DNA from: Candidatus Altimarinota bacterium
GTDB lineage: Bacteria; Patescibacteriota; Gracilibacteria; UBA4473
Direction of reading: 5' to 3'
Assembly: GCA_021734395.1 (NCBI GenBank)
Contig: JAIPJB010000004.1
Location: forward strand, 62,001-126,000
Length of the DNA: 64,000 bases
Shown one piece after another: positions 9,648 to 32,544 of this stretch. The notes beneath the pieces were generated by a model, which had not been told where the DNA came from, ran no database searches, and saw only the letters and a program-made list of their open reading frames with translations. Positions within the stretch are counted from its first letter, which is position 1, and each line of letters opens with the position of its first letter. The position numbers were made by a program, and so were the translations under genes.

Positions 9648-10862
9648 TTATGGTTCAAAACGAAATGAAGCCAAATCACGCGATTCGAAACCAACCGGTG
9701 CATTTCGATATCCTCCATCGCGATCTGTATTTTCACGGTTAAAGGTGCTAATCATAGAACCATCAGCCGTAAAGGCAGATATGGTCCCCATCCCAATATT
9801 TGAATAGTAATTTTTCTCGGAATCTACTTTTACCAAGATACGAAAAACTCTGTCTTCACCGGGGAGAATAATAATATCGATGCCACTAATAAAAATATTT
9901 CCGGTGCGGCTTACATCCTTCTGCTGAGAAATTCCACCACCCCGCAGATGAAACTGAAACACACTTGCCGGACCAACATTACTGCGCTCAAATCGAAGTT
10001 TGAATTCTAAACTGTGTAACTGAACTCGATCTTCGAGCTTATTGGTGACACGAAGCGCTCCCAGATCAACCCAATCCGACTCAGGAGTGATAATAATCTC
10101 TTCTTCTCGTGGTACCGCCGTAATAGAGAGTTCTTCTCGTGCAATGTCATATCCCTGTTTATTGGGATTGAAATCACGTGGTTTAATAGCCACTCGACGA
10201 GCATCACGGAGATTCCCCGGTGAAAATTCATTCGTGGCCGATTCTCCCATGAGACGAGGTTTTGCTGTAACTTCAGCAATAACCCAGGCGGCATCTGCTC
10301 GAGAAACGGGAGTTGAAGGCTCAAAATAAGGAGATTTTTCACGGAGAAGTTCATTTGCCGCAAGGTGGAAAATAGGCTCGGCAAACCAAACCTGTGACGG
10401 AACATCGACATATCCTGGATTTTGTTCGCGTTCGAGTTCAAAAGCACGAGACACCATCGTGGCCCATTCGGCACGATTTACTGTCGCAGCTGGGCGAAAA
10501 GTTCCATCCGGAAATCCTTGAATCCATCCTCGCTCGACTGCTTCTGCAACCGCTCCCGAAAACCATTCTCCTCGAGGAACATCAGAAAATACCAATTCGG
10601 GATTTCGAGCGGAATTTTCAAAGTCAATATCTTTTGTTCTCAGGAGAATCACTAATGCTTCAGCTCGACTGAGAAGCTTCTCAGGACGAAACGTTCGATC
10701 ACCAAACCCAGTCATAATATTTCGTTCTCTCACTGTTTCTACCGCATCCCAAGCCCATTGAGGAATTTTATTGTCATCTTCAAAACGAAATAACGCTTGT
10801 ACTGAAAAAATAAATCCTGAAAAAAGGATGTTCAAAATAGCAAAATACAGTATTTTTTTCAT
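9648..10862 (-). CDS. S-layer homology (SLH) domain surface protein
   Basis: 404-residue secreted protein started at the ATG giving MKKILYFAILNILFSGFIFS, a clear signal peptide. Three SLH modules follow (about 30-90, 95-150, 155-215), with repeated marks such as GFGDRTFRPEKLLSRAEA, GFPDGTFRPAATVNRAEW and EPSTPVSRADAAWVI. SLH triplets bind pyruvylated secondary wall polymers and anchor S-layer proteins. The C-terminal 170 residues form a beta-rich domain (VDLGALRVTNK to the ISAFTADG region) that resembles the repeated beta domains of the protein at 12116-13981. It is divergent from the aroK-purN gene and begins the surface-protein region. Confidence 0.92.
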   Translation of the reverse strand: MKKILYFAILNILFSGFIFSVQALFRFEDDNKIPQWAWDAVETVRERNIMTGFGDRTFRPEKLLSRAEALVILLRTKDIDFENSARNPELVFSDVPRGEWFSGAVAEAVERGWIQGFPDGTFRPAATVNRAEWATMVSRAFELEREQNPGYVDVPSQVWFAEPIFHLAANELLREKSPYFEPSTPVSRADAAWVIAEVTAKPRLMGESATNEFSPGNLRDARRVAIKPRDFNPNKQGYDIAREELSITAVPREEEIIITPESDWVDLGALRVTNKLEDRVQLHSLEFKLRFERSNVGPASVFQFHLRGGGISQQKDVSRTGNIFISGIDIIILPGEDRVFRILVKVDSEKNYYSNIGMGTISAFTADGSMISTFNRENTDRDGGYRNAPVGFESRDLASFRFEP

Positions 10863-10903
10863 GTTTGTGAGGTCATAAAATGGCAGATCAGAGCCTAGAG
10901 GAT

Positions 10904-10931
10904 TTGATTTTTTTTGCAAATTCTGTTACAA
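10904..10931 (+). promoter_or_regulatory. promoter of the aroK-purN fusion gene
   Basis: TTGATT, 16 bases, TTACAA, seven bases, then GTG. The predicted RNA start falls on or next to the start codon, so the mRNA should be leaderless. Confidence 0.55.
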
Positions 10932-10938
10932 GTGCCGA

Positions 10939-12057
10939 GTGAAAAAACAAAATATAGTTTTGATTGGTTTCCGAGGTGCCGGCAAAAGCACTTTTGGCCG
11001 TGCACTTGCTCAGGTAACACACCTTCCTTTCGCTGATATTGATGAGGAAGTAGAATTTTTGATCGGTGAGCCGATTCATTCATTCGTAGAAAAACACGGG
11101 TGGCAGGTTTTTCGAGAAGTAGAACAGCGTGTTACACACGATTTTTGCCGCAATTTTTCTGGTATTTTGGCCACGGGAGGTGGGACAATCGAAAATTCTA
11201 AAAATCTCCAAAATCTCAAAAAAACAGGCGTTTTTGTCTTTTTAAATCCCGGCTTCGAAAAAGTTCGAAAATATTTGTTGACCAGTGAAAAAGAAAAAAA
11301 ACGTCCCCGTTTTAATCCAGAAGTTTCGTTGGCAGAAGAAATCGATCAGATGTGGAATCAGAGAAAATCTATTTATCAGGCAACTGCTGAATACGAAGTA
11401 AATCCTGATTTTGACGGAGAAAAAAAGACGGAAGCCAAAAAAATGGCAGCTCAACTCGAAAAAATACTACCTTCTCCTCCGCCTCAAAAAAAAGTCGCTG
11501 TCTTTTCTTCGAGTAATGGGACAAGTTTTGAGGGATTGCTGGAAGCGCAGCAACGGGGAAGAATCCCGAATGTAGAATTTCTGCTTTTCGTAACCGATCA
11601 ACCAAAATCCGGAGCGCTCAAAAAAGCTCAAAAAGCAAAGATTCCTCTCATTGAAGTACGGGAAGAAAAGAAAGGTGAGTCACGAGAAGAGTATGATCGA
11701 GAATTAATGAATATTCTTCGTCAGCATAATCCAGATGCTATTTTATTAGCGGGTTGGATGCGAATATTTTCGCCACTGTACTGCGATCAATTCGGAAATA
11801 TTACCTATAATGTTCACCCCTCCCTTCTTCCTCAGTTTTCAGGTCTCAAGGGAGACGAAGTACACCAAAAAGTACTCGAATACGAAGAACGATACAGTGG
11901 GTGTACTATTCATAGAGTGAGCAAAGACGTTGACGCAGGAGAAATCGTACTGCAGCGGAAAGTACCAGTCGATCCCGAAGACACAATTGATTCACTTCGA
12001 CAGAAAGTACAAAAACAAGAAATACTCGGATTCTGTGAACTTCTCGAAAAGCACTAA
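10939..12057 (+). CDS. fused shikimate kinase - phosphoribosylglycinamide formyltransferase (AroK-PurN)
   Basis: 372-residue two-domain protein. Residues 1 to about 172 are shikimate kinase: P-loop GFRGAGKST (10-18), the acidic DIDEEVE shikimate/Mg site near 33-39 and the GGGT loop near 79. Residues about 183-372 are GAR transformylase: SSSNGTS in place of the usual SGNGSN phosphate loop, NVHPSLLP with catalytic Asn291 and His293, GLKGDEVH, and Asp332 in DVDAGEIV. The first half phosphorylates shikimate; the second transfers formyl from 10-formyl-THF to GAR in purine synthesis. A Pro-rich linker (PSPPPQKK) joins them without a stop or frameshift. The start is GTG. I know of no standard fusion of these two enzymes. 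Confidence 0.9.
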   Translation: MKKQNIVLIGFRGAGKSTFGRALAQVTHLPFADIDEEVEFLIGEPIHSFVEKHGWQVFREVEQRVTHDFCRNFSGILATGGGTIENSKNLQNLKKTGVFVFLNPGFEKVRKYLLTSEKEKKRPRFNPEVSLAEEIDQMWNQRKSIYQATAEYEVNPDFDGEKKTEAKKMAAQLEKILPSPPPQKKVAVFSSSNGTSFEGLLEAQQRGRIPNVEFLLFVTDQPKSGALKKAQKAKIPLIEVREEKKGESREEYDRELMNILRQHNPDAILLAGWMRIFSPLYCDQFGNITYNVHPSLLPQFSGLKGDEVHQKVLEYEERYSGCTIHRVSKDVDAGEIVLQRKVPVDPEDTIDSLRQKVQKQEILGFCELLEKH

Positions 12058-12061
12058 ATAA

Positions 12062-12091
12062 AAAAAGAATCTGCTTGGAGCAGATTCTTTT
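12062..12091. terminator. bidirectional rho-independent terminator
   Basis: AAAGAATCTGCT-tgg-AGCAGATTCTTT, with A on the left and T on the right. It can end both the aroK-purN transcript and the converging transcript of the 12116-13981 gene. Confidence 0.85.
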
Positions 12092-12115
12092 AAAATTCAT
12101 AGCTGATACCTCTTG

Positions 12116-13981
12116 TTATGGATTTCTTTTGACAACAACGGTATTTGTTGGCAATCCATTGACAAGATACCCTGATAACCAGTCTTTCGATTGGGTTGTA
12201 TGAGGTCTCCCCGAATGATCTGACCAAATGAAGTTCGCTCCATTGGAACGAACTTCCGAGAGAGTCCCGCTCATGCTACTGGAATCTCCTAAAACCTGAA
12301 CGGCTACCGAATCCGCATCAACATCTCCCGGTTCATCCTCAAGCTGGAGTTTGAGCGCTAATTCTACCTGAGAATGACGATTGATAAGAAGTTCTGTACC
12401 GGTATCAAAAGTAACTGTATTCCCAGATCCCAGAGAAGGAGTAAAGCTTGTTCCACTGACCTCTTGTCCTCCGTAGATCTGTTTGATCTGAAAATCATCT
12501 GCTGATCGCCCACCAGGATAGCTCAAGCCAGAGAGCGTTATATTCAGGGTTATTCTTCCAAGCGAAACATCCTGATTGCTGGGATTTGAAATCTGAAAGC
12601 GATATACCTGATTGAGATTGTTACTGACGGCAAATCCATTTGGCTGAGATGCGGGACTGACACGCATCCCCCCGCCAGATTGAACCACAACAAAAGTATC
12701 CGTCTGAACGGAGAAATTCTTATTGCTGAGGGGAATTTCACTCCCCGAGCCGATTCCCCATACTTCTATATCTGCAGGATCCAATTGGAGACGAAATTGT
12801 GAGCTCTGGTTTCCCGTATTAATACGACTGGCAGTCTGAACATCAAAATGAATTTGCCGTTGGCTGTTTCGAGGAATAAGAAAGCGACGAGAAAATTGAA
12901 AATGCGCCCTTCCATTAGTAAAGCGAGCCGTATCCAAAACTTCTCCCGTAGAACTATTTATGGCTTCAATTTTATTGATAAAAGAATCGACGCCACCATT
13001 ACTCAGCGTATCTTCGAGAGTTATCTCACGGATATACATATCATCATAATGAGCGGAAAAATTCAAAGCCAATACCGTTGCCTCTTCAGAAGCAGAGAGC
13101 GTTTTTCCAAAGATCTGATGAGGAGTTCCTGAAAATTGCGGTGTTCCTGTTGTTTGTGGTGCAGGATCAAACGAGATGTAATCTGAAATCGGGGACCCTG
13201 TAAGAATGGTTCTCACTGATTGCTGAGACGACTCTGTAACCGCAGTTGTACGAAACAATCGCAGTCGCAAAGAGCCAGGGACATGCGGCGTAAAGGAAGG
13301 ATCATCTACTTTGAGCGCCACATTGAATGATAAACTATCTCCTTGTGCCAAACGAGCCTTTTGGAATCGGAGTGTAACTTCTCCATTCTGTTCAAATTCA
13401 AATTCTTGTCCTTCCACGCCCTCCAAAACAAGGGAAAAGTTTGTGGGATCGGAAGCAATACCTGAATTGGAAAACATCTGAAATGTCAGGGTATCGAGTA
13501 AAACCGGCTCCACAAAATCCGTTCCCACTCCGCGACTATTATTGCTCACGCCAATCTGAAAAACGCGAATCGGCTGAGAAGTAATCGAAGAGACGTCTTG
13601 ATTCGGTCGAATAGAATTGACATGAACTGTGAGCTGATGATCTGTTTGTCCGGTCAGAGAAGTATTTTGACGTGAACGATAGATCGTCGTATTCCTCACA
13701 GGAGGAAAATAAGATGTCGTCGGATCAGAAGGAGTTTCTGGCTCCCACGAATCTCGGGTAATCACTCGGCGTTGCCGATTTCGATAGTATCCGGGTCCCC
13801 AATTAAAACTTCTTCGAAGGGAAGGACGATACTGGTTGGAAGAGGAGGAATATCGCTGAACCAAATTTTGCCAGTATTCCGATGTATACGGATTATAGGT
13901 TATTGCTTGAGCCTCAAAGCACATCCCTGTGGCGAACAATAAAAAACCGAAAACGATAAATTTTTTAAACATATGTTTCAT
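12116..13981 (-). CDS. large secreted beta-domain protein, Arg/Tyr/Ser-rich N-terminus
   Basis: 621 residues started at MKHMFKKFIVFGFLLFATG, a signal peptide ending near AQA. The mature N-terminus is rich in Tyr, Arg and Ser (YSSSSNQYRPSLRRSF, GYYRNRQRRV). Three or four beta-sandwich-like domains follow. Their marks recur: a strand such as LDTLTFQMFSNSG, IREITLEDTLSNGG or LGRITLNITLSG, then strands ending in SLSFNVALKVDD, RQIHFDVQTASR or VELALKLQLEDE. The SLH protein carries one similar domain. I infer a surface or S-layer-associated protein of unknown function. A TACTAT box lies five bases before the chosen ATG; further ATGs upstream (13999, 14017) are less likely. Confidence 0.72.
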   Translation of the reverse strand: MKHMFKKFIVFGFLLFATGMCFEAQAITYNPYTSEYWQNLVQRYSSSSNQYRPSLRRSFNWGPGYYRNRQRRVITRDSWEPETPSDPTTSYFPPVRNTTIYRSRQNTSLTGQTDHQLTVHVNSIRPNQDVSSITSQPIRVFQIGVSNNSRGVGTDFVEPVLLDTLTFQMFSNSGIASDPTNFSLVLEGVEGQEFEFEQNGEVTLRFQKARLAQGDSLSFNVALKVDDPSFTPHVPGSLRLRLFRTTAVTESSQQSVRTILTGSPISDYISFDPAPQTTGTPQFSGTPHQIFGKTLSASEEATVLALNFSAHYDDMYIREITLEDTLSNGGVDSFINKIEAINSSTGEVLDTARFTNGRAHFQFSRRFLIPRNSQRQIHFDVQTASRINTGNQSSQFRLQLDPADIEVWGIGSGSEIPLSNKNFSVQTDTFVVVQSGGGMRVSPASQPNGFAVSNNLNQVYRFQISNPSNQDVSLGRITLNITLSGLSYPGGRSADDFQIKQIYGGQEVSGTSFTPSLGSGNTVTFDTGTELLINRHSQVELALKLQLEDEPGDVDADSVAVQVLGDSSSMSGTLSEVRSNGANFIWSDHSGRPHTTQSKDWLSGYLVNGLPTNTVVVKRNP

Positions 13982-14013
13982 ACGATATAGTACGCGCATT
14001 GTAGAAAAATATT

Positions 14014-14041
14014 TCAAAAAGGAAAGCCACTCATGTGGCTT
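14014..14041 (-). terminator. terminator after the 14081-14986 gene
   Basis: On the minus strand AAGCCAC-atga-GTGGCTT is followed by TCC and five T. It separates the upstream two-gene unit from the large beta-domain gene. Confidence 0.8.
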
Positions 14042-14080
14042 CCCTTACATCCTCTGCAAAAGAAGCATTCTTTTTATTTC

Positions 14081-14986
14081 TTAGAGGTCTCGGACGGGAG
14101 TATACAAGCGAAAAGTATCAAATATATGTTTGCTAATGCCTATATATTGAGAAGCATTTCTGAGCGATACTTGTGTTTCGATAACATACACTCCTCCTTG
14201 CAAATCAGCCACAAAATAACGGGAAATGTATTTTTCTTCATCTCCCACTCTCCCAGCAAACGATTCTGTAAATGTACGTGTTTGTACTTCTGGCGCATTG
14301 AGTACCGTATCAGAATATTGTGCCTGACGAGAAATAGAGCTGATATTGAATATTTTTTCTGCTGGATTCTTATAATTCCTGTCTTTTGACAAAGAGATCG
14401 CACAGGTCGTAAAACTCACTGTTTCACAAGGATCTTCGAGTCGAACAATGGAAATTGTATAATCAGAAAAGGGAGATCGGAAAAAATGAGGATTCGAAGA
14501 GAGTGGCCTCCATCCCTTTGGAACCTGAACCGAAAAAACTTGGTTTTCATAGGTATAAAATTCTTCTACAGCATTCCGAATAGTCTGGAAGCTGATAGGA
14601 TCCCTCCGACGAAGACTTTCACTCCAAGCAAGTGCTATACGGTCGGTTGTTGGCCGAAGCGGAAGTTGATCTTTTCGAACTTCTTCCAGAGTTTTTGCTG
14701 TACCGGGGACATAAACACTGCGTGTATTTTGTTGAGGATAACGCAGATTCCGAATTGGATTTGACCCTCTGCGATTTGGAGTTGTTTCCCGCTGAAGTAG
14801 TCGGCGTGTGCTTCCTCGAGTTGCCGAAAAAGGACGGAAAGGATGAGGAGAAACATACCGCGGTGTTTTCTCCCGTGCTGTACGATAGAGATAATTATGA
14901 TACGCTTCGCGCGAAGCATCAGCGAAAGGAATAAGAGCTCCTGCGAGAAGGGAAAGGCCGAGAACCGAGCTGAAAAATTTTTTCAT
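14081..14986 (-). CDS. secreted Arg-rich protein, PsbP-like C-terminal domain
   Basis: 301 residues: signal peptide (MKKFFSSVLGLSLLAGALIP, cleavage near ADA), then about 90 residues dominated by Arg, Thr, Pro and Tyr (HPFRPFSATRGSTRRLLQRE and similar), then a folded domain. That domain starts at NQVFSVQVPKGWRPL, contains two conserved cysteines (DPCETVSFTTC) and ends in TFTESFAG...FDTFRLY. The order resembles PsbP/DUF1795-like proteins (a VPxGW strand early, a helix ending in S/TFR late), which is inference. It is paralogous to the next gene upstream, 21 bases away, so the two form one unit ended by the terminator near 14030. Confidence 0.7.
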   Translation of the reverse strand: MKKFFSSVLGLSLLAGALIPFADASREAYHNYLYRTAREKTPRYVSPHPFRPFSATRGSTRRLLQRETTPNRRGSNPIRNLRYPQQNTRSVYVPGTAKTLEEVRKDQLPLRPTTDRIALAWSESLRRRDPISFQTIRNAVEEFYTYENQVFSVQVPKGWRPLSSNPHFFRSPFSDYTISIVRLEDPCETVSFTTCAISLSKDRNYKNPAEKIFNISSISRQAQYSDTVLNAPEVQTRTFTESFAGRVGDEEKYISRYFVADLQGGVYVIETQVSLRNASQYIGISKHIFDTFRLYTPVRDL

Positions 14987-15007
14987 GGAAGGGAAATAAC
15001 AAGAATA

Positions 15008-16021
15008 TTAGAGCTGAAAACGGAAACTTTGGAAAACTTTTTTCATAACCTGAGCGGCTATTTCTGCATCATGTTCTTTTGCAACCGCTTCTATGCGGAT
15101 CACAGATCCATCAGAAGGATCTAATGCACTAAAAATAAAATAGATATTTTGACTGCCAAATGCCGTAGCGTGAAAGCTTTCTGTAAATGTTGGATAGAGA
15201 AGCATTTGTCGTCCTACCGTTTGATCCCAATCCTCACTTCGATTGAGCTGAGACACCTGTACGAGATTTTGACTGTCTTTGAATCCTTTGCCCAAGTTGA
15301 TAGCACACAACTCGAAGCTCGGCTGTACACAGCTATATTTTTCGGGAGTCGGTGAAATACGGAATGTCAACGAATTATAGGTGCTCTTATAATCACCATC
15401 AATTCCTTGTGTAAATCCCGCAGGAATTTCCAAAGTGTATTTCGGACCGATGTATTGTGTTTCAGGACGCAATGAAATATGTGCAGGAATAAAATTCACA
15501 TCGTCTACAACGACAGGTTCTCGATAAATCTGTAGTGTCGGAATAGAGTCAGCAAAAGCAGTTTTACTTCTGTAATCATCATTTCGAACCACAATGCGCT
15601 GGGTAGCGAATCGGTTTTCGTTTCGAGGATAGAGATCTGGATGAAGCGCTCGATAGATTTCCATCCTCTTGTCATCATTCATGACTGATTCACGATATTG
15701 AGCATAATACCAGACATCATGACGACGAGAAGGGTGAGAAAAATCGAGATATTCATTCGCCAATCGACTTCGTGTAGGACGACGATATCGAAAAGGACCA
15801 ATGCGATTAGAGAAAGGTCGAACTCTTCCCTGGTCACAGCATCCATTGCGGAAATATCGCTCTTTGGGATCCACATAGTTTTGTGGACAAGTCCCACAAG
15901 TGGACGACTGCACCCTATAAGGATATCGCCAATATCGTGACGAAACACCAGCATGAGAAGAGGCAATAAAAGCTCCTCCTATACAGAGCAAGCCGAGACC
16001 GAGAAAAAGATATTTTTTCAT
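15008..16021 (-). CDS. secreted Arg/Tyr-rich protein, paralog of the 14081 gene
   Basis: 337 residues: signal peptide (MKKYLFLGLGLLCIGGAFIA, cleavage near SHA), then an Arg/Tyr-rich segment with four cysteines in the mature N-terminus (STCGTCPQNY and NGCCDQG) that could form disulfides. A folded domain begins at KYTLEIPAGFTQG, has a Cys pair (YSCVQPSFELC) at the same place as its paralog and ends YPTFTESFHA...VFQSFRFQL. The shared strand order and the TFTESF motif show common descent with the 14081-14986 product. Function unknown; a surface or periplasm-like location is inferred. Confidence 0.72.
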   Translation of the reverse strand: MKKYLFLGLGLLCIGGAFIASSHAGVSSRYWRYPYRVQSSTCGTCPQNYVDPKERYFRNGCCDQGRVRPFSNRIGPFRYRRPTRSRLANEYLDFSHPSRRHDVWYYAQYRESVMNDDKRMEIYRALHPDLYPRNENRFATQRIVVRNDDYRSKTAFADSIPTLQIYREPVVVDDVNFIPAHISLRPETQYIGPKYTLEIPAGFTQGIDGDYKSTYNSLTFRISPTPEKYSCVQPSFELCAINLGKGFKDSQNLVQVSQLNRSEDWDQTVGRQMLLYPTFTESFHATAFGSQNIYFIFSALDPSDGSVIRIEAVAKEHDAEIAAQVMKKVFQSFRFQL

Positions 16022-16136
16022 GGGGAAGAAATAGAGCGAAAAAAGAAGACTCCCGAGTAAACTCGGCAGTTTTTCTTTTTATTTTTCTTTTCGAATGAAT
16101 TTTTAAATGAAAAGCTTTCTTTTGTCAAATATTTTT

Positions 16137-17618
16137 TTATTGTTTTTCTGGTTCTTCAAAGAAAAGCGAAGAAAAAGTATTATTTGCTTGTCTGATATCA
16201 TTCAAAAAAGCATCTTTCTTTTCGGGAGATTCTATTTCTATACGCCATACAAAATAATTTTGTATGGGTTCTATAAACGTAAACAGAGCAATTCTTTTTC
16301 CGGTTTCTCGTAATAAAACAAAACGAGCAATATCGTTTTTATAATTTTGAGTGCGAGAATCATCCGCATCGTCCAACTGAAGAAGCATATTATTTTCCTT
16401 CAATAATTGGAGAGAAGGATGATCTGTCTTAAATTCTTTCAAAAAAGCATCGGAATTTTTCTCTAAGCAACGACGCTTGAGACGAGGTGTTTGATCCTGA
16501 CAGGTTTCGTTGCTGGGAAGGATTCGAATTACACTTCCATCATCCCCCTGGAAAACTATTTCTCCCTGATTCCAATCAGCCGTATCAGACTGTAGAAGAA
16601 AAGAAGAAGGAAGTTCTATCTTAAAAGGAACTTTTTGAGCATGGAACACTTTTGTTTGTGAATCATCCAGTCGGATAGGATTTTTTGACTGAACATACGT
16701 CCCTCGATCAGATCGCTTTTCTGGTACCTGTATTTGTGAAAAACGATTTATTTTTGACTGAAGTTGGGCATTATTTTGTCCTTCGTTCTCGACCAGAGAA
16801 GTAAGTACTCTCTGTAATATCCTATTATCTTTGAGAATTTTTTTGTCTGAAGTGGGATCCAGAATGGTCATTTCCCAAACAAAATCTCGTATAGGATCGA
16901 AAAATGTCAGATGTGCTGCCTGATATTTTGGAGAGGACATCTGAACCCAGCGACTAATATTTCCTTTTTGTCTTCGGTTTACGTTCGCAGTAGAAAAAAG
17001 ATCTACCTCTTTGTTTTCGGTAAGACGGATAGTGACAAATTGATCTTTCAGACGAGAAATAAATTCATTCGATTCTTTCTCCAGACAATGGCGAACAAAT
17101 GTGATCCCTCCGTCACAGCGTTTGTCGGTGGCGTGTATTTGAATCTGCACACCATCTTCATCTTCAAAATAAAACTTCCCTTCATTCCAGTAGAGTGTGT
17201 CCTGGGTCACTTCAAATTCTTGAGGGAGGATGATAGAAAAAGCAATGTCACGAGCACTAAATACTTCAAAATCCTCCTCTGTGCGATTGGAAACATCCTC
17301 TACTGTCGGAACACTACTGCGACTATAAGGACGAAGTCGCTGAGAAAAAGTTCGACGACGAGACATTCTGTTTTCCAAAAAAGACTCGCTCTGTTCTTCG
17401 TCTACTGTTTGGCTCGTGCGCAAAAATTCACTGCGCAATCGTGGACGATAACGAGAGTAATTGGGAAGCTTCGAAGAACGAACTTGGCGGGTAAAACTGT
17501 CTATCTTTTCTGCATACCGACTCCCTGAACCACGAAATCGTGAAGTAATATTTGCTGCCTCTGCAAAACCAAAGAAGAGGAAGCTTAAAACAAAAACGTT
17601 TATAAAGAATTTTTTCAT
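16137..17618 (-). CDS. secreted protein with two copies of the same domain
   Basis: 493 residues started at MKKFFINVFVLSFLFFGFAE, a signal peptide. An Arg/Ser/Tyr-rich stretch (RYRPRLRSEFLRTS, RRRTFSQRLRPYSRSS) precedes two tandem domains of about 150 residues. Copy one opens FSARDIAFSIILPQEFEV and has RHCLEKESNEF; copy two opens FHAQKVPFKIELPSSFLL and has RRCLEKNSDAF. Both have a Cys pair and a late aromatic VWE/VWR strand. These copies resemble the single domain of the two downstream genes (an ILP/VP/IPAG-type strand and a Cys pair). I infer that the three genes arose by duplication of one secreted protein. Function unknown. Confidence 0.72.
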   Translation of the reverse strand: MKKFFINVFVLSFLFFGFAEAANITSRFRGSGSRYAEKIDSFTRQVRSSKLPNYSRYRPRLRSEFLRTSQTVDEEQSESFLENRMSRRRTFSQRLRPYSRSSVPTVEDVSNRTEEDFEVFSARDIAFSIILPQEFEVTQDTLYWNEGKFYFEDEDGVQIQIHATDKRCDGGITFVRHCLEKESNEFISRLKDQFVTIRLTENKEVDLFSTANVNRRQKGNISRWVQMSSPKYQAAHLTFFDPIRDFVWEMTILDPTSDKKILKDNRILQRVLTSLVENEGQNNAQLQSKINRFSQIQVPEKRSDRGTYVQSKNPIRLDDSQTKVFHAQKVPFKIELPSSFLLQSDTADWNQGEIVFQGDDGSVIRILPSNETCQDQTPRLKRRCLEKNSDAFLKEFKTDHPSLQLLKENNMLLQLDDADDSRTQNYKNDIARFVLLRETGKRIALFTFIEPIQNYFVWRIEIESPEKKDAFLNDIRQANNTFSSLFFEEPEKQ

Positions 17619-17675
17619 AAGAAAAATGCGAAAAATCACTTTTAGACTAGCTGTTCAACCATAAAAAGTCAAACC

Positions 17676-18271: not shown

Positions 18272-19081
18272 ATGAATTCCCCTATACTCCCCTCTCGTCC
18301 TTCTGATTCCCACAAAGGGCAAAATGGTCGTGTTCTGATTCTTGGCGGTAATGAATTTTTTCACGGAGCGCCAATCTTAGCGGCATTGGGGGCAGAGAAA
18401 TCAGGTATTGACTTGCTTTTTCTGTGTCTTCCCGCAAAACACGCTCCCCTCGCCCGCCAAAAAAGTTTGAATTTTATTGTGCATGAATTTCAAAAATCTC
18501 ACCTGAGCTCCCCTGATATACCCCATATTCTTTCTCTCGCACAACACTGTGATACCGTGTTGATCGGGAATGGACTGGGAACCGCATCCGAATCACAAAC
18601 AGCACTTCTGGAGTTACTCGGGCAATTCACTATTCCGGTTATTTTGGATGCCGAAGCTTTAATTCCTCAGATATTAACCGTTCCTCACAAAAACTCCTGG
18701 ACTCTCACTCCGCACGAAAAAGAATTCGAACGCGTTTTTGGTATCCGAGCAAACGAAACCACACTGAAAGAATTCGCTCAAAAACAGAACGTCACAATTC
18801 TTAAAAAAGGGAAAGTAGATGTGATGACCAATGAAACGGGAACTATTCTGCGCAATGCGACTGGGAATGAACACATGACCGTCGGCGGAAGCGGTGATGC
18901 CCTGGCTGGTATTATTGCTGGACTCCAAGCACAAAAAATTCTGCCTCTGCAATCATGTCAGCTGGCAACCTTTTTATGGGGAGAGTGCGGAGATCGTCTT
19001 TTTAGTATGCAAGAAACCTTTACAGCTGAAGACATGCTCCATTTCTTCCCAAAAATGCTGAAATCATTTCCCGAAAAGTGA
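18272..19081 (+). CDS. nnrD: ADP/ATP-dependent (S)-NAD(P)H-hydrate dehydratase
   Basis: 269-residue ribokinase-fold enzyme of the YjeF C-terminal / CARKD family, which repairs hydrated NADH and NADPH. Marks are GRVLILGGNEFFHGAP near the start, VLIGNGLGTASESQ, the LTPHEKEFERVFG segment and the catalytic anion-hole loop EHMTVGGSGDALAGIIAGL. The partner epimerase (YjeF N-terminal, nnrE) is not fused and not in the window. TATACT lies six bases before the ATG, suggesting a leaderless mRNA. Its 3' end overlaps folP by 18 bases, convergent. Confidence 0.9.
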   Translation: MNSPILPSRPSDSHKGQNGRVLILGGNEFFHGAPILAALGAEKSGIDLLFLCLPAKHAPLARQKSLNFIVHEFQKSHLSSPDIPHILSLAQHCDTVLIGNGLGTASESQTALLELLGQFTIPVILDAEALIPQILTVPHKNSWTLTPHEKEFERVFGIRANETTLKEFAQKQNVTILKKGKVDVMTNETGTILRNATGNEHMTVGGSGDALAGIIAGLQAQKILPLQSCQLATFLWGECGDRLFSMQETFTAEDMLHFFPKMLKSFPEK

Positions 19082-19816
19082 GCGATGAGCTGACACATCG
19101 TGTACGCGTAAAAATGCCACACCAGATTGAATTGCAACTCGAGCCGCCTCCAGATTACGAGAAATTTCAAAACGCTGTTCTCCCAAAAATCGTTTGCGTG
19201 AATGTCCGATCACTATTGATTCATCTGGTAATAATTGAGGGAACGTGAGCAATTCCCAATTTAACTTTGGCGTTTTCCCAAAACCAATACCAGGATCCAG
19301 AAGAATGCTTTTCGGATGAACTCCTGCCCGTACCAATTCTTCTTTTCGCGCGAGTAAATCATCGCGTACTTTTTCTTGTGAATTCAGAAATGAATGTTTA
19401 TGAACTTCTTCGGTATTCTTCCCTGGAAAATGATTGACGATTATTTTTTTGAATTCTGGAGCAAGCTCTCTCATTTGAGGATCCTGAAATCCCGAAACAT
19501 CATTGAGTATCTGCCCGCCCAAATGGAGAAATTTTTCTGCGGTCTGTGGGTGCAGTGTATCAAGAGAAATTATTTCTGAATATTTTGGAAGCAATGCCTC
19601 CAAAACGGGCTTCACTCTTTTCCATTCTTCTTGGGGAGAAATATTCGGTGCATCCGGTCGCGTGCTCTGACCTCCGATATCCACCCAGTCAGCACCTTCT
19701 TCAAAGAGTTTTTCCGCATGAGCAATAGCTTTTTGACAATCAAAAAAACTCCCTCCGTCTGAGAAAGAATCCGGTGTCACATTTAATATTCCGATGATCC
19801 CGCAATGTCCTTTCAT
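19064..19816 (-). CDS. folP: dihydropteroate synthase
   Basis: 250-residue TIM-barrel enzyme that joins pABA to the pterin pyrophosphate in folate synthesis. Marks are GILNVTPDSFSDGG, DWVDIGGQSTRPDA, ILNDVSGFQDP, LLDPGIGFGKTPKLNWELL, the IGHSRKRFLG substrate loop and the C-terminal RVHDV. Length is slightly short for the family (about 270-280) but all catalytic motifs are present. With pabB and folD in the window it argues that the organism makes at least part of its folate, if folB/folK/folE exist elsewhere. Confidence 0.94.
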   Translation of the reverse strand: MKGHCGIIGILNVTPDSFSDGGSFFDCQKAIAHAEKLFEEGADWVDIGGQSTRPDAPNISPQEEWKRVKPVLEALLPKYSEIISLDTLHPQTAEKFLHLGGQILNDVSGFQDPQMRELAPEFKKIIVNHFPGKNTEEVHKHSFLNSQEKVRDDLLARKEELVRAGVHPKSILLDPGIGFGKTPKLNWELLTFPQLLPDESIVIGHSRKRFLGEQRFEISRNLEAARVAIQSGVAFLRVHDVSAHRSLFGK

Positions 19817-19945: not shown

Positions 19946-20614
19946 GTGAAAGCGCCAATTATTGTACTCGAGGGGCTCGATGCCTGCGGAAAATCTACCC
20001 AGACAAAACTTCTTCAGGAAAATCTCAAAAAGAAGGGGCTGCGCGTGGGATACGTTCGTTTTCCAGGATATGAAAAGTCCCCTGCTGGTCGACGGATTGC
20101 GGCCTATCTGCGAGGAGAATTCGGAAAAATGGAAGAAATTGATCCGCGGCTTGTCGCCAATCTTTACGCGGCGGATAGACTCTATCAAATCGACGAAATA
20201 GAAGAACTGAGAGAAAAAAACGACGTGGTTCTTTTTGATCGGGGAGTTACATCCAATCTCATCTATACCCCCGCGAGAGGAAAAGGAAAATCGGAAATCC
20301 AGGAGTTAGAAAAATTTATCGAAAAACTCGAATATGAGGTATTTGGGTTTCCACGGGAAAGTTTGGTGATTTTTCTGGATGCCACAGCTGAAACCAGACA
20401 GCAACTACATGCAGCCAAAAAACGACTGGCCGATCTGCACGAAGCCGACGATGAGTATCTGGAAAAAGTTCACAAAGTCGCTCTCACGCGATGCGAAAAA
20501 GATTTTCGATGGGTTCGATTGCCGGTGGATAGAGCGGGACAACTGAGAAGAAGAGAAGAAATCGCCCAAGAAATCTTGACGCTGGTATTGGAAAAATTAC
20601 AGAAAACAAAATGA
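19946..20614 (+). CDS. tmk: thymidylate kinase
   Basis: 222-residue kinase that phosphorylates dTMP to dTDP. P-loop GLDACGKSTQT near the N-terminus, the FPGYEKSPAG dTMP loop, the DRGVTSNLIY motif (the DRY/DRW-type element) and a basic LID-like segment around AAKKRLADLHEADDEY. I start at GTG 19946: the upstream in-frame ATG at 19871 would add 25 low-complexity residues translated from the promoter. The last codon overlaps the folD start as ATGA, so the two are coupled. Confidence 0.9.
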   Translation: MKAPIIVLEGLDACGKSTQTKLLQENLKKKGLRVGYVRFPGYEKSPAGRRIAAYLRGEFGKMEEIDPRLVANLYAADRLYQIDEIEELREKNDVVLFDRGVTSNLIYTPARGKGKSEIQELEKFIEKLEYEVFGFPRESLVIFLDATAETRQQLHAAKKRLADLHEADDEYLEKVHKVALTRCEKDFRWVRLPVDRAGQLRRREEIAQEILTLVLEKLQKTK

Positions 20615-21471
20615 CCGCACAAATAATCTCCGGCCGCGATATCGCTCAAAAAATCATACAAAAAGAACTCATTCCGCGAGTGAGGATGTTGAACAAAAAA
20701 AGTGTTCAACCAAAACTCGTGGTCATCTTTCTAGGAGAAAATTCAGCTTCTGCCAGCTACATCCGACAAAAAGAGAAGTTTGCCGCTCAGGCTGGCGTTG
20801 CTTCGGAGGTGCTCAAATTTCCAGAATCTATCAGCGAAGAAGAACTTCTGGTCGAAATCAAAAAAATTAATGCTGATGATTCAATCCACGGGGTCATCGT
20901 TCAGCTTCCCCTCCCCGATCATATCAATGTAGACAAGGTTATTTCCACCATTGATCCTACCAAAGACGTAGACGGGTTCAGCGATGAAAATAATAGCGAC
21001 CTGGATATTCGAAAATCACTTCTTCCCCCCTGTACTCCAAAAGGAATTATAACCATGCTCGAAAAATCCGGTGTGAACGTCGCCGAGAAACGAGTCGTTG
21101 TCATGGGACGATCTCGGATTGTTGGTCGTCCAGTCGCCGAAATGATGCTCTTCCGAGGCGCTATGGTCAAAGTCCTTCATTCTAAAACCCCTCCCCAAGA
21201 AGCCGCTCAAGCGCTCAAAGAAGCAGAAGTGCTGGTCGTGGCGGTTGGGAAACCTGAATTAGTACGAGGAGAACAGTTATCCAGGGGCGTGATTGTCATT
21301 GATGTCGGTATCCATCGACGGGAAGACGGATCTCTGTGCGGGGATGTGCATTTTGAAAGCACCAAAAAAGTCGCATCACTCATTAGTCCTGTGCCAGGAG
21401 GTGTGGGACCAATGACTGTGGTAAGCTTAATAGAAAACACCATAACCGCAGCAGAACAAACCGCCAATTAG
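20611..21471 (+). CDS. folD: bifunctional methylene-THF dehydrogenase/cyclohydrolase
   Basis: 286-residue FolD, which interconverts 5,10-methylene-THF and 10-formyl-THF and so supplies PurN and initiator Met-tRNA formylation. Marks are SASYIRQKEKFAAQAG with the catalytic Lys, GVIVQLPLPDHIN, DVDGFSDENN, PPCTPKGII, VVMGRSRIVGRPVAEMM and the C-terminal PVPGGVGPMTV. It is translationally coupled to tmk, a sensible pairing because thymidylate and folate one-carbon metabolism are linked. A copy of the 21-bp palindrome encodes LNKKSVQ near residue 28, in the loop before the first beta strand. Confidence 0.96.
   Translation: MTAQIISGRDIAQKIIQKELIPRVRMLNKKSVQPKLVVIFLGENSASASYIRQKEKFAAQAGVASEVLKFPESISEEELLVEIKKINADDSIHGVIVQLPLPDHINVDKVISTIDPTKDVDGFSDENNSDLDIRKSLLPPCTPKGIITMLEKSGVNVAEKRVVVMGRSRIVGRPVAEMMLFRGAMVKVLHSKTPPQEAAQALKEAEVLVVAVGKPELVRGEQLSRGVIVIDVGIHRREDGSLCGDVHFESTKKVASLISPVPGGVGPMTVVSLIENTITAAEQTAN
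20689..20709. repeat. dispersed 21-bp palindrome (in folD)
   Basis: TTGAACA, seven bases, then TGTTCAA. It is read in a different frame from the femAB, pabB and mfd copies. Confidence 0.85.
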
Positions 21472-22434: not shown

Positions 22435-23202
22435 ATGCTGAATATCAAAAATTTGCACGCCCGACTCGAACAAAAAGAAATCCTGCGAGGAATTAATCTG
22501 CAGGTCAATCCAGAAGAAATTCATGCGATTTTGGGACCCAATGGGTCTGGAAAATCAACACTCGGGAGAGTCTTGGTGGGTGATGAAAAATACGAAAAAA
22601 CAGAGGGAAAAATGACTCTAGAGGGGAGAAATTTTGACGAAATGGATTCTGCAGAACGCGCACAAGCCGGGTTTTTTCTGAGTTTCCAATCACCTCCTGA
22701 AATCGATGGTGTCTCCGCAAAAGAATTGCTCTTAGCAGCAAAAAAAGCACTCGATAAAGATTTTCGTTCGTCTTTTCGTCTGAAAAAAGAACTCTCAGAA
22801 AATCTCAAAAAACTCCATCTTTCCGATGAATTTATGACGCGAGATGTACATAAAGGCGCATCAGGAGGCGAACGACGAAAAATGGAAATGGCATCACTCC
22901 TGACTATCGATCCAAAAATTGCTTTTCTGGATGAAATCGATTCGGGTATTGATGTGGACGCAATGAAAGCTATAGCCACAGCTATTCAAGAATTCATGAA
23001 ACGAAAAGGAAAGGCATTGATCTTGGTCTCCCATACCGAAAAGCTTCTCCAAATGATCCAACCAACCCATTTTCATGTTCTGTGTGCAGGAACAATTGTC
23101 CAGTCAGGAGGACAAGAAATAATGGAGCGTGTCCATCAATGTGGATTTTGTGATTTTATTCAAGAAAAGAAAAAAAATAGCCAATTGAAAGTTGTTTCGT
23201 AA
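22435..23202 (+). CDS. sufC: Fe-S cluster assembly ATPase SufC
   Basis: 255-residue ABC-type ATPase of the SUF system. Walker A GPNGSGKST, the SufC-typical FFLSFQSPPEIDGVS Q-loop, signature GASGGERRKMEMASLL, Walker B IAFLDEIDSGID and switch His in LVSHTEK. It forms the SufBC2D scaffold complex on which Fe-S clusters are built. I start at ATG 22435; the frame is open from 22384 without a good start. The next gene starts 14 bases past the stop, so this is an operon. Confidence 0.96.
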   Translation: MLNIKNLHARLEQKEILRGINLQVNPEEIHAILGPNGSGKSTLGRVLVGDEKYEKTEGKMTLEGRNFDEMDSAERAQAGFFLSFQSPPEIDGVSAKELLLAAKKALDKDFRSSFRLKKELSENLKKLHLSDEFMTRDVHKGASGGERRKMEMASLLTIDPKIAFLDEIDSGIDVDAMKAIATAIQEFMKRKGKALILVSHTEKLLQMIQPTHFHVLCAGTIVQSGGQEIMERVHQCGFCDFIQEKKKNSQLKVVS

Positions 23203-23215
23203 GAAACCCAAAAAA

Positions 23216-24622
23216 ATGTCTTCTACCGTACAATTTCAAGAAATTTCTCGGGCGGATCTGGACACGCCCAATACGCAGAAATATGCGGAGAAATTTCGCA
23301 AAGGTCTAACTGAGGAAGTCGTTCGAGAGATTTCAGCCGATAAAAAAGAGCCTCAATGGATGCTCGAAATACGCCTCAAAGCGTTAAAAATTTTTCACAA
23401 GAAAAAAATACCGACCTGGGGTCCGGATCTGAGGAAACTAGACTTCACAGATATTCGATATTTTTCTACGGCATCCGAAAACCCCAATGCGAAAACTTGG
23501 GAGGAAGTCGATCCTGAAATTAAACGAACCTTTGAGCGACTGAAAATTCCAGAAGCCGAACGTGCTGTCTTGGCTGGAGTCGGAGCCCAGTACGAATCAG
23601 AAAATGTATACCACAATATAAAAAAAGAATGGGAAGAAAAAGGTGTCATTTTTGAAGATTTTGATGTGGCGGTACAAAAATATCCGGATCTGGTACGAAA
23701 ATACTTTTCTCGCAGTGTGCCGCTGAATGATCATAAATTTGCTGCTCTTCATTATGCAGTGACCTCGGGAGGAACCTTCCTGTACGTACCCAAGGGCGTA
23801 AAAATAACTCAGCCCTTGCAGGCCTACTTTCGCATGAATTCCATGAATCAGGGACAATTTGAGCACACGCTCATTGTGGTCGAAGAAGGAGCTGATGTTC
23901 ACTACATTGAAGGCTGTTCCGCCCCTAAATATGGGTCTCAAGCCCTGCACGCGGGATGCGTCGAAGTCTTTGTCGAAAAAGGCGCAAAAGCGCGATATTC
24001 ATCCGTCGAAAACTGGAGCAAAGACACCTATAATTTGAATACGAAACGTGCCCTCGTGCACGAAAACGCTCGCATGGAATGGATCGGGGGAAATTTGGGC
24101 TCGGGAGTGACAATGCTTTATCCCTGTTCTATTTTAATCGGTGACAATGCGCAGGCCGATCATTTGGGAGTTGCTTTTGCGAATACTGATCAAAATCAAG
24201 ACACCGGAGCCAAAATCATCATCAACGGAAAAAATTGCAGAGCGAAAATTGTGTCTAAAAGTCTTGCCAAAGGCGGCGGAATTACGACTTATCGCGGACT
24301 AATCGATATCAAGCCTCATGCAGAAAACGCAACGGTAAATGTGGAGTGTGATGCTCTCATGCTGGATGATAAATCCGTATCGGATACCATTCCTCACATC
24401 ACGTGTGACAATCCGACGGCTTCCATGACCCATGAAGCGAGTGCCGGAAAAATATCCGAAGAAGTCTTGCTCTACTTTCAGTCACGAGGCATCGATGAAG
24501 AAACCGCAAAAGGCATGATCGTCAATGGTTTTTTGGACGAGATTGTAAAAACACTGCCTCTCGAATATGCGGTCGAGCTCAATCGTCTCATAGAACTCGA
24601 GATGGAAGGTAGTGTCGGATAA
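23216..24622 (+). CDS. sufB: Fe-S cluster assembly scaffold SufB
   Basis: 468-residue SufB of normal length. Marks are VPLNDHKFAALHYAVTSGGT, the parallel beta-helix core with HYIEGCSAPKYGSQALHAGC (a SufB cysteine region), NLNTKRALVHENARMEWIGG, and the C-terminal AGKISEEVLLYFQSRGIDEE. With SufC and SufD it assembles clusters in the cytoplasm. The start is ATG 23216. A GIY-YIG cassette directly follows, separating it from sufD. Confidence 0.96.
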   Translation: MSSTVQFQEISRADLDTPNTQKYAEKFRKGLTEEVVREISADKKEPQWMLEIRLKALKIFHKKKIPTWGPDLRKLDFTDIRYFSTASENPNAKTWEEVDPEIKRTFERLKIPEAERAVLAGVGAQYESENVYHNIKKEWEEKGVIFEDFDVAVQKYPDLVRKYFSRSVPLNDHKFAALHYAVTSGGTFLYVPKGVKITQPLQAYFRMNSMNQGQFEHTLIVVEEGADVHYIEGCSAPKYGSQALHAGCVEVFVEKGAKARYSSVENWSKDTYNLNTKRALVHENARMEWIGGNLGSGVTMLYPCSILIGDNAQADHLGVAFANTDQNQDTGAKIIINGKNCRAKIVSKSLAKGGGITTYRGLIDIKPHAENATVNVECDALMLDDKSVSDTIPHITCDNPTASMTHEASAGKISEEVLLYFQSRGIDEETAKGMIVNGFLDEIVKTLPLEYAVELNRLIELEMEGSVG

Positions 24623-24634
24623 AACTTTTTCTAT

Positions 24635-25070
24635 CCTTCTGACTTTATTTCAGAGCCTCCTTGAACTCATATGAAAACATATTACGTTTACATTCTCAGC
24701 AACAAATACAACAATGTCCTCTACATTGGAGTCACAAATGATCTGCCACGAAGAATAAGCCAACACAAACAAAAACAAATAAAAGGATTCACGCAAAAAT
24801 ATAACTGCACAAAACTGGTGTATTACGAAGCAACCAATAATATTTCCGCCGCACTTACTTACGAAAAACAACTCAAAAACTGGCACAGAAAGTGGAAAGA
24901 AAATCTGATTAATGAGTTCAACCCAAAATGGGAAGATATTGCTCTAAAGGAAGAATTACTCGGAGATGCTGAAACTAGTTCAGCATGACAATTATTTTTT
25001 ATTTATGTCTTTCTTTTTTATGATGCCTTTTCCTTTCTGTCATTCTGAATTCATTTCAGAATCTCCTGGC
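24635..25070. repeat. palindromic repeats framing the GIY-YIG gene
   Basis: Three related small hairpins share one design. The right one is ATTCTGAA-ttcat-TTCAGAAT (25042-25062). The middle one is ATGCTGAA-actag-TTCAGCAT (24966-24986) over the stop codon. The degenerate left one (about 24636-24658, CTTCTGAC then TTTCAGAG) precedes the ATG. Left and right copies match at about 22 of 28 aligned bases. They mark the probable borders of the inserted cassette. Confidence 0.7.
24671..24988 (+). CDS. GIY-YIG endonuclease family protein (mobile cassette)
   Basis: 105-residue YhbQ/UPF0213-type GIY-YIG domain: YVYILSNKYNNVLYIGVTND gives the two GIY/YIG strands, followed by catalytic Arg in PRRISQHK and a late Glu in AALTYEKQLKNWHRKW. 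Its C-terminus, GDAETSSA, is encoded by one arm and loop of a palindrome that crosses the stop codon. Related small GIY-YIG genes often carry such palindrome-encoded ends. It interrupts sufB-sufD and is flanked by similar palindromes, so I read it as an inserted cassette. Whether it cuts DNA is unknown. Confidence 0.88.
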   Translation: MKTYYVYILSNKYNNVLYIGVTNDLPRRISQHKQKQIKGFTQKYNCTKLVYYEATNNISAALTYEKQLKNWHRKWKENLINEFNPKWEDIALKEELLGDAETSSA

Positions 25071-25096
25071 ATCAGGATAAAAACAAATCATCATTC

Positions 25097-25627
25097 ATGA
25101 AATTAAAAAATCCACAAGGTACCAAAAAAATCATCGTTGGAAACAACGAAAAACAGGAAATTTTCCTGGAAGATTTTGAACCCGGCAAAAGAAGTTTTGA
25201 ATTGATTATCGAGCTCAAAGGAAAAAATGCCGAATGCCATGTCCAAGGACGAGCTCAAGCAACCAAAAAAGATGAAAAAACTTGGATCGTTCGCCAAATG
25301 TATCAAGGGGAAAATCAAACCGGCCTGATAGAACTCCGAGGCACAGCGGAAGATGAAAGTTTTCTGCAATTTGATGGTATGGCGATTCTTGAGCAATCTT
25401 CTAAAGATGCTGATGCACAGATCAATGAAAAGATCATTCTTTTTGACAAAGGCCGGGGAAAACTACTCCCCGTACTGACCGTAAAAACCGACAAAGTAAA
25501 GTCTGCCTCACACGGAGCCTCTATTGCTCCGGTAAACGAAGAACAAATCCTCTATCTCCAATCTCGAGGAATCCCTCAGAAAAAGGCAGAAAAAATACTC
25601 AAAGAAGGATTTTTACAGGGAATCTAA
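25097..25627 (+). CDS. sufD: short SufD-like scaffold protein
   Basis: 176 residues that match only the beta-helix C-terminal half of SufD: GIIELRG-type repeats, then NEKIILFDKGRGKLLPVLTV and SHGASIAPVNEEQILYLQSR with the final helix PQKKAEKILKEGFL. Full-length SufD has about 400 residues, so this is a minimal or truncated form, yet the frame is clean and the start has normal spacing. It may complete a minimal SufBCD complex. It is separated from sufB by the GIY-YIG cassette. No sufS or sufU follows; the next gene is convergent. Confidence 0.85.
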   Translation: MKLKNPQGTKKIIVGNNEKQEIFLEDFEPGKRSFELIIELKGKNAECHVQGRAQATKKDEKTWIVRQMYQGENQTGLIELRGTAEDESFLQFDGMAILEQSSKDADAQINEKIILFDKGRGKLLPVLTVKTDKVKSASHGASIAPVNEEQILYLQSRGIPQKKAEKILKEGFLQGI

Positions 25628-31048: not shown

Positions 31049-31465
31049 TTACTTTCTTAATTCGTGCCAGAAAAAAAGAATTACTCCAGCCGTTATCCAA
31101 ATATCGGCAAAATTAAAAATGGGAAAATTCCAAAAACGCAAGAAATCTGTAACCGAACCAAAGAGTATGCGATCAATAAAATTTCCAGCCGCACCAGAAA
31201 AAAGGAATAAAAATGCCACACTTTCTGTTTTCATTAATTCTTTGCGAACCAATACCCACCCTAAAAATACTAAAAATACTGCGGTAAGAATCAGAAGAAG
31301 AAGTGGAGGAAATGGCAGAGAAAAAGCAATCCCGACATTTTCTGAGGCGTGTAATTCAAAAAAGGGCAAGACTTCTTTAGGCGGGGTAAAAAAAAGGCGT
31401 GCAGTAATTTTGGTCAGCTGATCAATCCCAAAGAGAATCACAAATGCGAAGAGAAGTTTTTTCAT
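31049..31465 (-). CDS. lspA: lipoprotein signal peptidase (signal peptidase II)
   Basis: 138-residue, four-helix membrane aspartyl protease that removes signal peptides from lipidated prolipoproteins. Catalytic aspartates are in GAAGNFIDRILFG and FNFADIWIT; the first helix contains FGIDQLTK, the usual D-x-x-(S/T)K element. The ATG overlaps the pabB stop as ATGA, which fixes the start. It is the last gene of the rpmE operon. Confidence 0.95.
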   Translation of the reverse strand: MKKLLFAFVILFGIDQLTKITARLFFTPPKEVLPFFELHASENVGIAFSLPFPPLLLLILTAVFLVFLGWVLVRKELMKTESVAFLFLFSGAAGNFIDRILFGSVTDFLRFWNFPIFNFADIWITAGVILFFWHELRK

Positions 31466-32544
31466 GTGCGGGTGCATTCTCGCAAAATCTCGGCCTTCTG
31501 CAAAGTTTCCTGCCATTCCGCGACTGCATCTGATTCGTACGTGATTCCGGCTCCCACCGGAAATCTCCATTTTCCATCTTGTGCAAATAATGTCCGGATC
31601 AGAATGTTAAATATTGATTCCTCAGGGGAAAATCGAACCCCAAATGTGCCCGTATAAAAGTCACGATCAAAATTTTCGAGTTCCAATATTTTCTCAACTA
31701 CTCGTTTTTTTGGTGCGCCGGAAATCGATCCTGCCGGCAATAACATTTCGAATTGTTCCCACGAAATATTATTTTGGGGCAAGCGGGCATATATTTCTGA
31801 GTGCGCATCCCAGTGGCTTTTTCGGTCAACCAAAACTCTTTCATTTTCCACCCATACTTTCTTGGCAATCTGCCCCAAATCATTGCGGAGTAAATCCGTC
31901 ACCATAGCGAGTTCTGAAATCTCTTTTTCATTCTGTTCCAAATATTCCCGATCACCGGTTCCTTTGATCGGAAAAGTAGAGAGAATATTTCCTTTTTGGG
32001 TCAGAAATACCTCTGGAGACATTGAACACATTTTTTGTTCAACAGTCCAAACAACACCTCCACAATGATTTTTTTTCAACTCTAAAAAGGAATGATAGAG
32101 CGATAAAAGAAGTTTCTCATCTGAAAGCTCTTCCGAAAGCTCATGGGCTAGATTTAAAACCCAGATGTCTCCTTGCTCAGAAGCGCTTTGCACGGACTTG
32201 ATCTGAGAACAAAAAGACTTTTCTGTCTCATTGGAGCAAGCAGTCAAATCTAAGGGCCATGAAAAATCATAATTCTGCAAAACTTGTGGAAAGTTTTTTT
32301 CCAAAAGTTTTCCACATTCCTCATCCGAATACCATTCCGGAAAATGCCAGAAACTCTTTTTATCACCCAAAAAAGAAGTCAGCGAAAAAAAAGGAAACGG
32401 TCCCGTGGAAAAGTCCGCTGATATTTTTTTTCCGATACCAAATACCCATCGTTCTTTTTCTCCTTCACGAAACGAAAAAAAGATTCCTTCTTGGCCTTCC
32501 AAAAGAGCCGAAGCAAAACATGCAAACCCTTGCGATATATTCAT
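31462..32544 (-). CDS. pabB: aminodeoxychorismate synthase component I
   Basis: 360-residue chorismate-utilising enzyme, somewhat short because the N-terminal half is reduced. Marks are SPEVFL, the PIKGTG motif (Lys here is typical of PabB, against Ala in anthranilate synthase), AMVTDLLRNDLGQIA, LPAGSISGAPKKR and VGAGITYESDAVAEW. It makes aminodeoxychorismate for pABA and folate, needing a glutaminase (PabA) and lyase (PabC) not seen here. The start ATG overlaps the rnc stop (ATGA). The dispersed 21-bp palindrome encodes VEQKMCS just before SPEVFL. Confidence 0.9.
   Translation of the reverse strand: MNISQGFACFASALLEGQEGIFFSFREGEKERWVFGIGKKISADFSTGPFPFFSLTSFLGDKKSFWHFPEWYSDEECGKLLEKNFPQVLQNYDFSWPLDLTACSNETEKSFCSQIKSVQSASEQGDIWVLNLAHELSEELSDEKLLLSLYHSFLELKKNHCGGVVWTVEQKMCSMSPEVFLTQKGNILSTFPIKGTGDREYLEQNEKEISELAMVTDLLRNDLGQIAKKVWVENERVLVDRKSHWDAHSEIYARLPQNNISWEQFEMLLPAGSISGAPKKRVVEKILELENFDRDFYTGTFGVRFSPEESIFNILIRTLFAQDGKWRFPVGAGITYESDAVAEWQETLQKAEILRECTRT
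32022..32042. repeat. dispersed 21-bp palindrome (in pabB)
   Basis: TTGAACA, seven bases, then TGTTCAA. Identical over all 21 bases to the mfd copy. Confidence 0.9.

Follow-up and report, generated by a model that had tools for sequence, protein, structure and literature searches.

A shikimate kinase-GAR transformylase fusion, read as a single old event, in one family of Candidatus Gracilibacteria

The window analysed here, a stretch of 64,000 nucleotides, carries an aroK-purN fusion gene at positions 10939-12057 on the plus strand. The gene starts with GTG and encodes 372 amino acids. A preliminary description had proposed one uninterrupted frame encoding a complete shikimate kinase and a complete GAR transformylase, and all three points held: the 372 codons contain no internal stop, the same frame is found in 15 further full-length homologues of the same architecture, and both domains are recognised by their family profiles and by all the residues named. 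The shikimate kinase half spans residues 1-173 (10939-11457, plus strand; PF01202, motifs and Foldseek), and the GAR transformylase (PurN) half residues 184-372 (11488-12054, plus strand; TIGR00639, catalytic residues and Foldseek). Between them lies a Pro-rich linker, residues 174-183 (11458-11487, plus strand), predicted to be ordered (pLDDT of 92 for the block 171-180, and 95 for 181-190), whose Pro178 is invariant among 19 homologues.

The Pfam SKI profile (PF01202) matched residues 12-157 with an E-value of 5.6e-34 and 118 bits, above its gathering cut-off of 22.1, and Formyl_trans_N matched residues 184-366 (E-value 7.8e-41). The PurN equivalog TIGR00639 was also passed, with 153.5 bits for a cut-off of 150.1. 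The kinase half scored below the NCBIfam shikimate kinase equivalogs (best 98.9 bits, cut-off 161), as did the stand-alone shikimate kinase relatives scanned. Its motifs are intact: Walker A (G10-S17), D33/D35, R59, G80-82, the lid arginine R122, and R142. Shikimate kinase roles are reported for Arg58, Arg117, Arg136, Asp34 and Gly79-81, and R122 of the fusion is the equivalent of Arg117 in the M. tuberculosis enzyme (PMC7144000). The catalytic Asn-His-Asp of the PurN half is intact as well (N291, H293, D332). With Foldseek, the kinase half matched solved shikimate kinases, and the PurN half human and bacterial GAR transformylases. The kinase half has the fold and catalytic motifs of stand-alone AroK/AroL (PF01202), including the RP lid motif, but its stretches HDF-RNFSG and TIENSKN-QNL were unseen as such in 23 stand-alone relatives. 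Similarly, Asn-His-Asp is shared with stand-alone PurN (TIGR00639), but the PurN of the fusion is joined at its N-terminus, and its C-terminal helix reads QEILGFCELLE, whereas most stand-alone relatives have LEKEWYP or similar.

A putative promoter precedes the gene (10904-10938, plus strand), with a -35 box TTGATT (10904-10909), a 17-bp spacer and an extended -10 TG-T-TACAAG (10924-10932; TGTTACAAG). It was identified by eye from the upstream sequences of the family, and was not reported by a stricter consensus scan. Its predicted +1 coincides with the GTG start, and most relatives have a similar upstream layout with no evident Shine-Dalgarno sequence; a leaderless mRNA is therefore probable, and the choice of start codon fairly secure. 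At the other end, after the stop, a terminator-like inverted repeat, with a run of A on one side and of T on the other, lies between convergent genes (12050-12104, no strand assigned), which suggests a monocistronic transcript; the opposite orientation of the flanking genes also makes this probable. One polypeptide would thus be made from the fusion's own promoter. The divergent upstream neighbour (9648-10919, minus strand; Pfam SLH) encodes a functionally unrelated S-layer-homology protein, and occupies this place in 13 of the 15 genomes in which the upstream region is covered. More broadly, large exported-looking proteins flank the fusion on both sides (9648-10919 and 12116-17639), namely the SLH protein and several that match no Pfam family, and the order of these genes is conserved across several genera. 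An overlapping constraint at the nucleotide level, such as a promoter or RNA element hidden within the conserved shikimate kinase stretch, was ruled out by the synonymous sites: synonymous codon agreement is near random along the gene (0.95-1.25 times expectation), meaning that selection acts on the protein. Elsewhere in the window (23192-25627), a small ORF (24671-24988) resembling by eye a GIY-YIG nuclease sits between sufB (23192-24622) and a SufD-like gene of 176 aa lacking its N-terminal part (25097-25627); it is possibly an insertion that truncated sufD.

The fusion was present in all 20 genomes sampled of its Candidatus Gracilibacteria family, 16 copies being full length and 4 ended by contig ends (G006, G008, G013, G019). 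It was absent from 125 genomes of other families of the same class, and was not found outside the family in an even sample of 380 genomes of the phylum. A search with the full protein for fusions of the same order, advised in the preliminary description, found some, but only inside this one family, and in a search of genome contigs the joined halves occurred only in these same relatives, nearly all labelled Candidatus Gracilibacteria and some Patescibacteria. The open-access papers searched held no report of an AroK-PurN fusion. The family genomes are drafts, nearly all metagenomic and 70 to 100% complete, and calls of gene absence are weak where completeness is lower (G008, G016, G018, G005).

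In trees with stand-alone relatives, the fused PurN halves were monophyletic (support 100/99), and so were the fused shikimate kinase halves (90/93). Monophyly of both halves fits a single origin. Judged from these sequences, AroK-PurN is one old fusion, vertically inherited: two free-standing genes, aroK and purN, would have merged a single time, in the ancestor of this Gracilibacteria family, the product then being passed down vertically. Separate genes were seen close together in another family of the same class (f7), where purN and aroA-aroK lie on one strand within ~6 kb (L039 3234-8880, G046:C3), with an apparent recG between them on the other strand. As a direct precursor of the fusion, this arrangement is a partial lead only, given that purN is upstream of aroA-aroK, the reverse order. 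Within the fusion family, one genome (G008:C100, L035) has an intact stand-alone shikimate kinase on the same strand, ~250 bases past the end of the fusion.

No second shikimate kinase or PurN was found in the present genome, in an assembly rated 81% complete, and a congener (G001, 93% complete) likewise has the fusion as the sole shikimate kinase and PurN found. The other formyltransferase-family matches in the genome are separate, longer proteins. Family searches detected aroB, aroC, aroE, purD and purH, with aroB as a separate gene on contig C6 and purD as a separate gene on contig C5. An EPSP-synthase-like gene in the window (52534-53805) is murA rather than aroA. Since the fusion provides the only copies found of both domains, and these genes of the two pathways are present, both halves are probably active here, and the fusion most likely carries out both steps. 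The N-terminal half would phosphorylate shikimate and the C-terminal half would formylate glycinamide ribonucleotide; the two reactions would take place at separate active sites, and they have no substrate in common.

In relatives, either half can lose its active site. A half was called dead when residues known to matter were lost, a definition based on sequence, and such decayed halves are presumed inactive. The lid arginine R122 is replaced in six genomes. Four of them (G003, G016, G010 and G007) have no aroB, aroC or aroE, whereas the other two (G012 and G018) have another shikimate kinase-family gene; G007 and G018 have lost the GGG motif in addition. R122 is kept in 12 of the 12 genomes that seem to depend on the fused kinase, and lost in 6 of the 7 without the pathway or with another shikimate kinase-family gene, the exception being G002 (Fisher p 2.6e-4, uncorrected for relatedness). 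These losses may reduce to about two events well apart on the tree, one in a pathway-less clade and one in a genus with a second shikimate kinase-family gene, and a tree-respecting pair test of R122 loss had too few pairs for significance. G015, which has no second shikimate kinase, keeps the lid arginine but carries G13S and G81A, substitutions at two positions of the kinase that are invariant elsewhere. Two shikimate kinase-family proteins, L129 1683-2252 (G012, adjoining aroC) and L144 1078-1626 (G034), have a lid of the form G-x-P-P-F-F/GFPPFF without the usual arginine, and may represent a divergent type of kinase with a different lid.

Losses in the PurN half amount to two events: only G002 and G014, each of which carries a stand-alone purN, have lost Asn291 and Asp332. 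The G014 branch measures 1.49 for the fused PurN half versus 0.18 for the kinase half. The stand-alone purN of this genome (L033 2972-3868, G014:C35), on a 141-kb contig, is richer in GC (68%) than the surroundings of the fusion (56%), a difference suggestive of a foreign, horizontally acquired gene; its transfer perhaps preceded the decay of the fused PurN. In the tree it sits on a long branch. G002 has stand-alone copies of both activities and nevertheless keeps a full-length fusion; its extra kinase is on a 3.8-kb contig of differing GC that also bears aroC and aroB, which may be foreign or a contamination. The preliminary description had set catalytic loss in one half of close relatives against its own reading. 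Such loss does occur in some of them, and it speaks against a required two-way coupling, not against bifunctionality in the present genome.

Stop codons are absent from all decayed halves, which raises the matter of what keeps the fusion joined. We compared universal catalytic positions with fusion-specific ones, defined as conserved in intact fusions and not in stand-alone enzymes. Decayed PurN halves kept 44 of 52 fusion-specific against 37 of 60 universal catalytic positions (p 0.010), and decayed kinase halves 232 of 246 against 143 of 162 (p 0.040), the pooled cells being non-independent in both comparisons. Among the fusion-specific residues are HDF-RNFSG and ENSK-LQN on the kinase side and, in PurN, those of the C-terminal Q-LGFC-LE helix. 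AlphaFold predicted the window protein as one confident two-domain chain with an ordered linker (pLDDT 90, pTM 0.86), and gave similar values for the G014 protein, with its broken PurN half (pLDDT 88, pTM 0.84). For two domains, so high a predicted pTM suggests a defined arrangement, and together with the residue patterns it points to an inter-domain interface. The bond between the halves is thus most likely physical, and not one of metabolic coupling. A domain interface, along with the shared promoter and start, would hold the halves together, and once one activity is dispensable its active site would decay, the domain remaining as a scaffold. Overall, we think it fairly probable that AroK-PurN is a lineage-wide bifunctional enzyme of single origin whose halves are held together mainly by structural interdependence. 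In a bolder extension, which we consider improbable, the fused scaffold would have gained a function in addition to its two reactions; selection acting through fusion-specific surfaces of both halves would then preserve the whole two-domain protein even where the kinase or the PurN active site has been lost.

The persistence of the fusion could also be a neutral frozen accident: loss of a stop codon, or a deletion, would have joined the genes in a small population, and the halves would be independent, dead ones having merely escaped deletion. Gene merging is common in bacterial lineages with small genomes, the decay of the halves is indeed independent, and the kinase half is difficult to delete because promoter and start lie there. 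However, any stop could remove a dead C-terminal PurN, and the G014 half diverged fast without acquiring one; dead as it is, it keeps 20 of its 26 fusion-specific residues and is still predicted to fold. Dead kinase halves, for their part, retain HDF-RNFSG and TIENSKN. We regard a pure accident as unlikely, though a serious proposal. The preliminary description had itself considered a mere gene-merging event; this fits better than its other suggestion, folate coupling, with the addition that the domains now appear structurally dependent on each other.

A third, non-catalytic role, for instance in binding or regulation, could retain the fusion even in genomes that can do without one of the activities, or without both. 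It would account for the fusion-specific conserved stretches that persist in dead halves, and for the full-length fusion kept by G002 beside stand-alone copies of both activities. The shikimate kinase fold has precedents for such a fate: BzdR-type regulators (PMC3602430) and plant SKL1 and SKL2 (PMC2593004) retained the domain after kinase activity was lost, and inactive SKL1 lost the RPLL motif that holds the lid arginine (PMC2593004). In the fusion, unlike these proteins, loss of kinase activity is presumed in some relatives only, the other half is an enzyme, and a DNA-binding domain is absent. Moreover, neither a partner nor a conserved operon was seen, the small contig with the extra kinase of G002 may be foreign, and the conserved residues might do no more than make up the contact between the two domains. 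This role is, in our judgement, improbable.

We have still less confidence in the folate coupling put forward in the preliminary description, by which the kinase half would feed chorismate, chorismate folate, and folate the PurN half; on this view, the fusion would match the two fluxes. As it had stated, pabB (31462-32559), folP (19064-19816, minus strand) and folD (20611-21471) are in the window. Most family genomes, moreover, retain both activities. But the folate genes lie 7-20 kb from the fusion, in other transcription units, and the two enzymes have no intermediate in common. Furthermore, in four relatives that have no aroB, aroC or aroE the fused protein persists and its PurN half is intact, and the two with a stand-alone purN have a broken fused PurN in an intact frame, so that coupling is very improbable. 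Finally, an artefact of assembly or sequencing joining two genes, such as the error masking an inter-domain stop envisaged in the preliminary description, might be feared where most genomes are metagenome-assembled, but it is ruled out for practical purposes by sixteen uninterrupted full-length copies in separate assemblies from many projects, fifteen of them from relatives 57-80% identical to the window protein.

Fused enzymes are usually taken as a sign of cooperating functions (the Rosetta Stone argument), and the multifunctional proteins known to contain one of these domains (AroK-AroB, AROM and human GART) each join steps of a single pathway. AroK-AroB (NF010627, NF010556) and the pentafunctional AROM likewise contain shikimate kinase as a domain of a multifunctional polypeptide, but they join enzymes of the same pathway, whereas the fusion of the window joins two pathways; its C-terminal half is Formyl_trans_N and it has no dehydroquinate synthase domain, which sets it apart from AroK-AroB. 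Human GART, the trifunctional GARS-AIRS-GART, likewise has GAR transformylase as its C-terminal domain, but its partners are PurD and PurM, from one pathway. Here the partner is a kinase of aromatic synthesis, so that the protein is not a trifunctional GART either.

The two-pathway fusion described here is old enough to characterise an entire family of tiny, uncultured bacteria, some members of which seem to have inactivated the kinase half and others the PurN half. This makes it a natural experiment on why fusions persist, be it by metabolic coupling, physical dependence or inertia. It also closes two apparent gene gaps: a search for stand-alone aroK and purN would call both genes missing in these reduced genomes.
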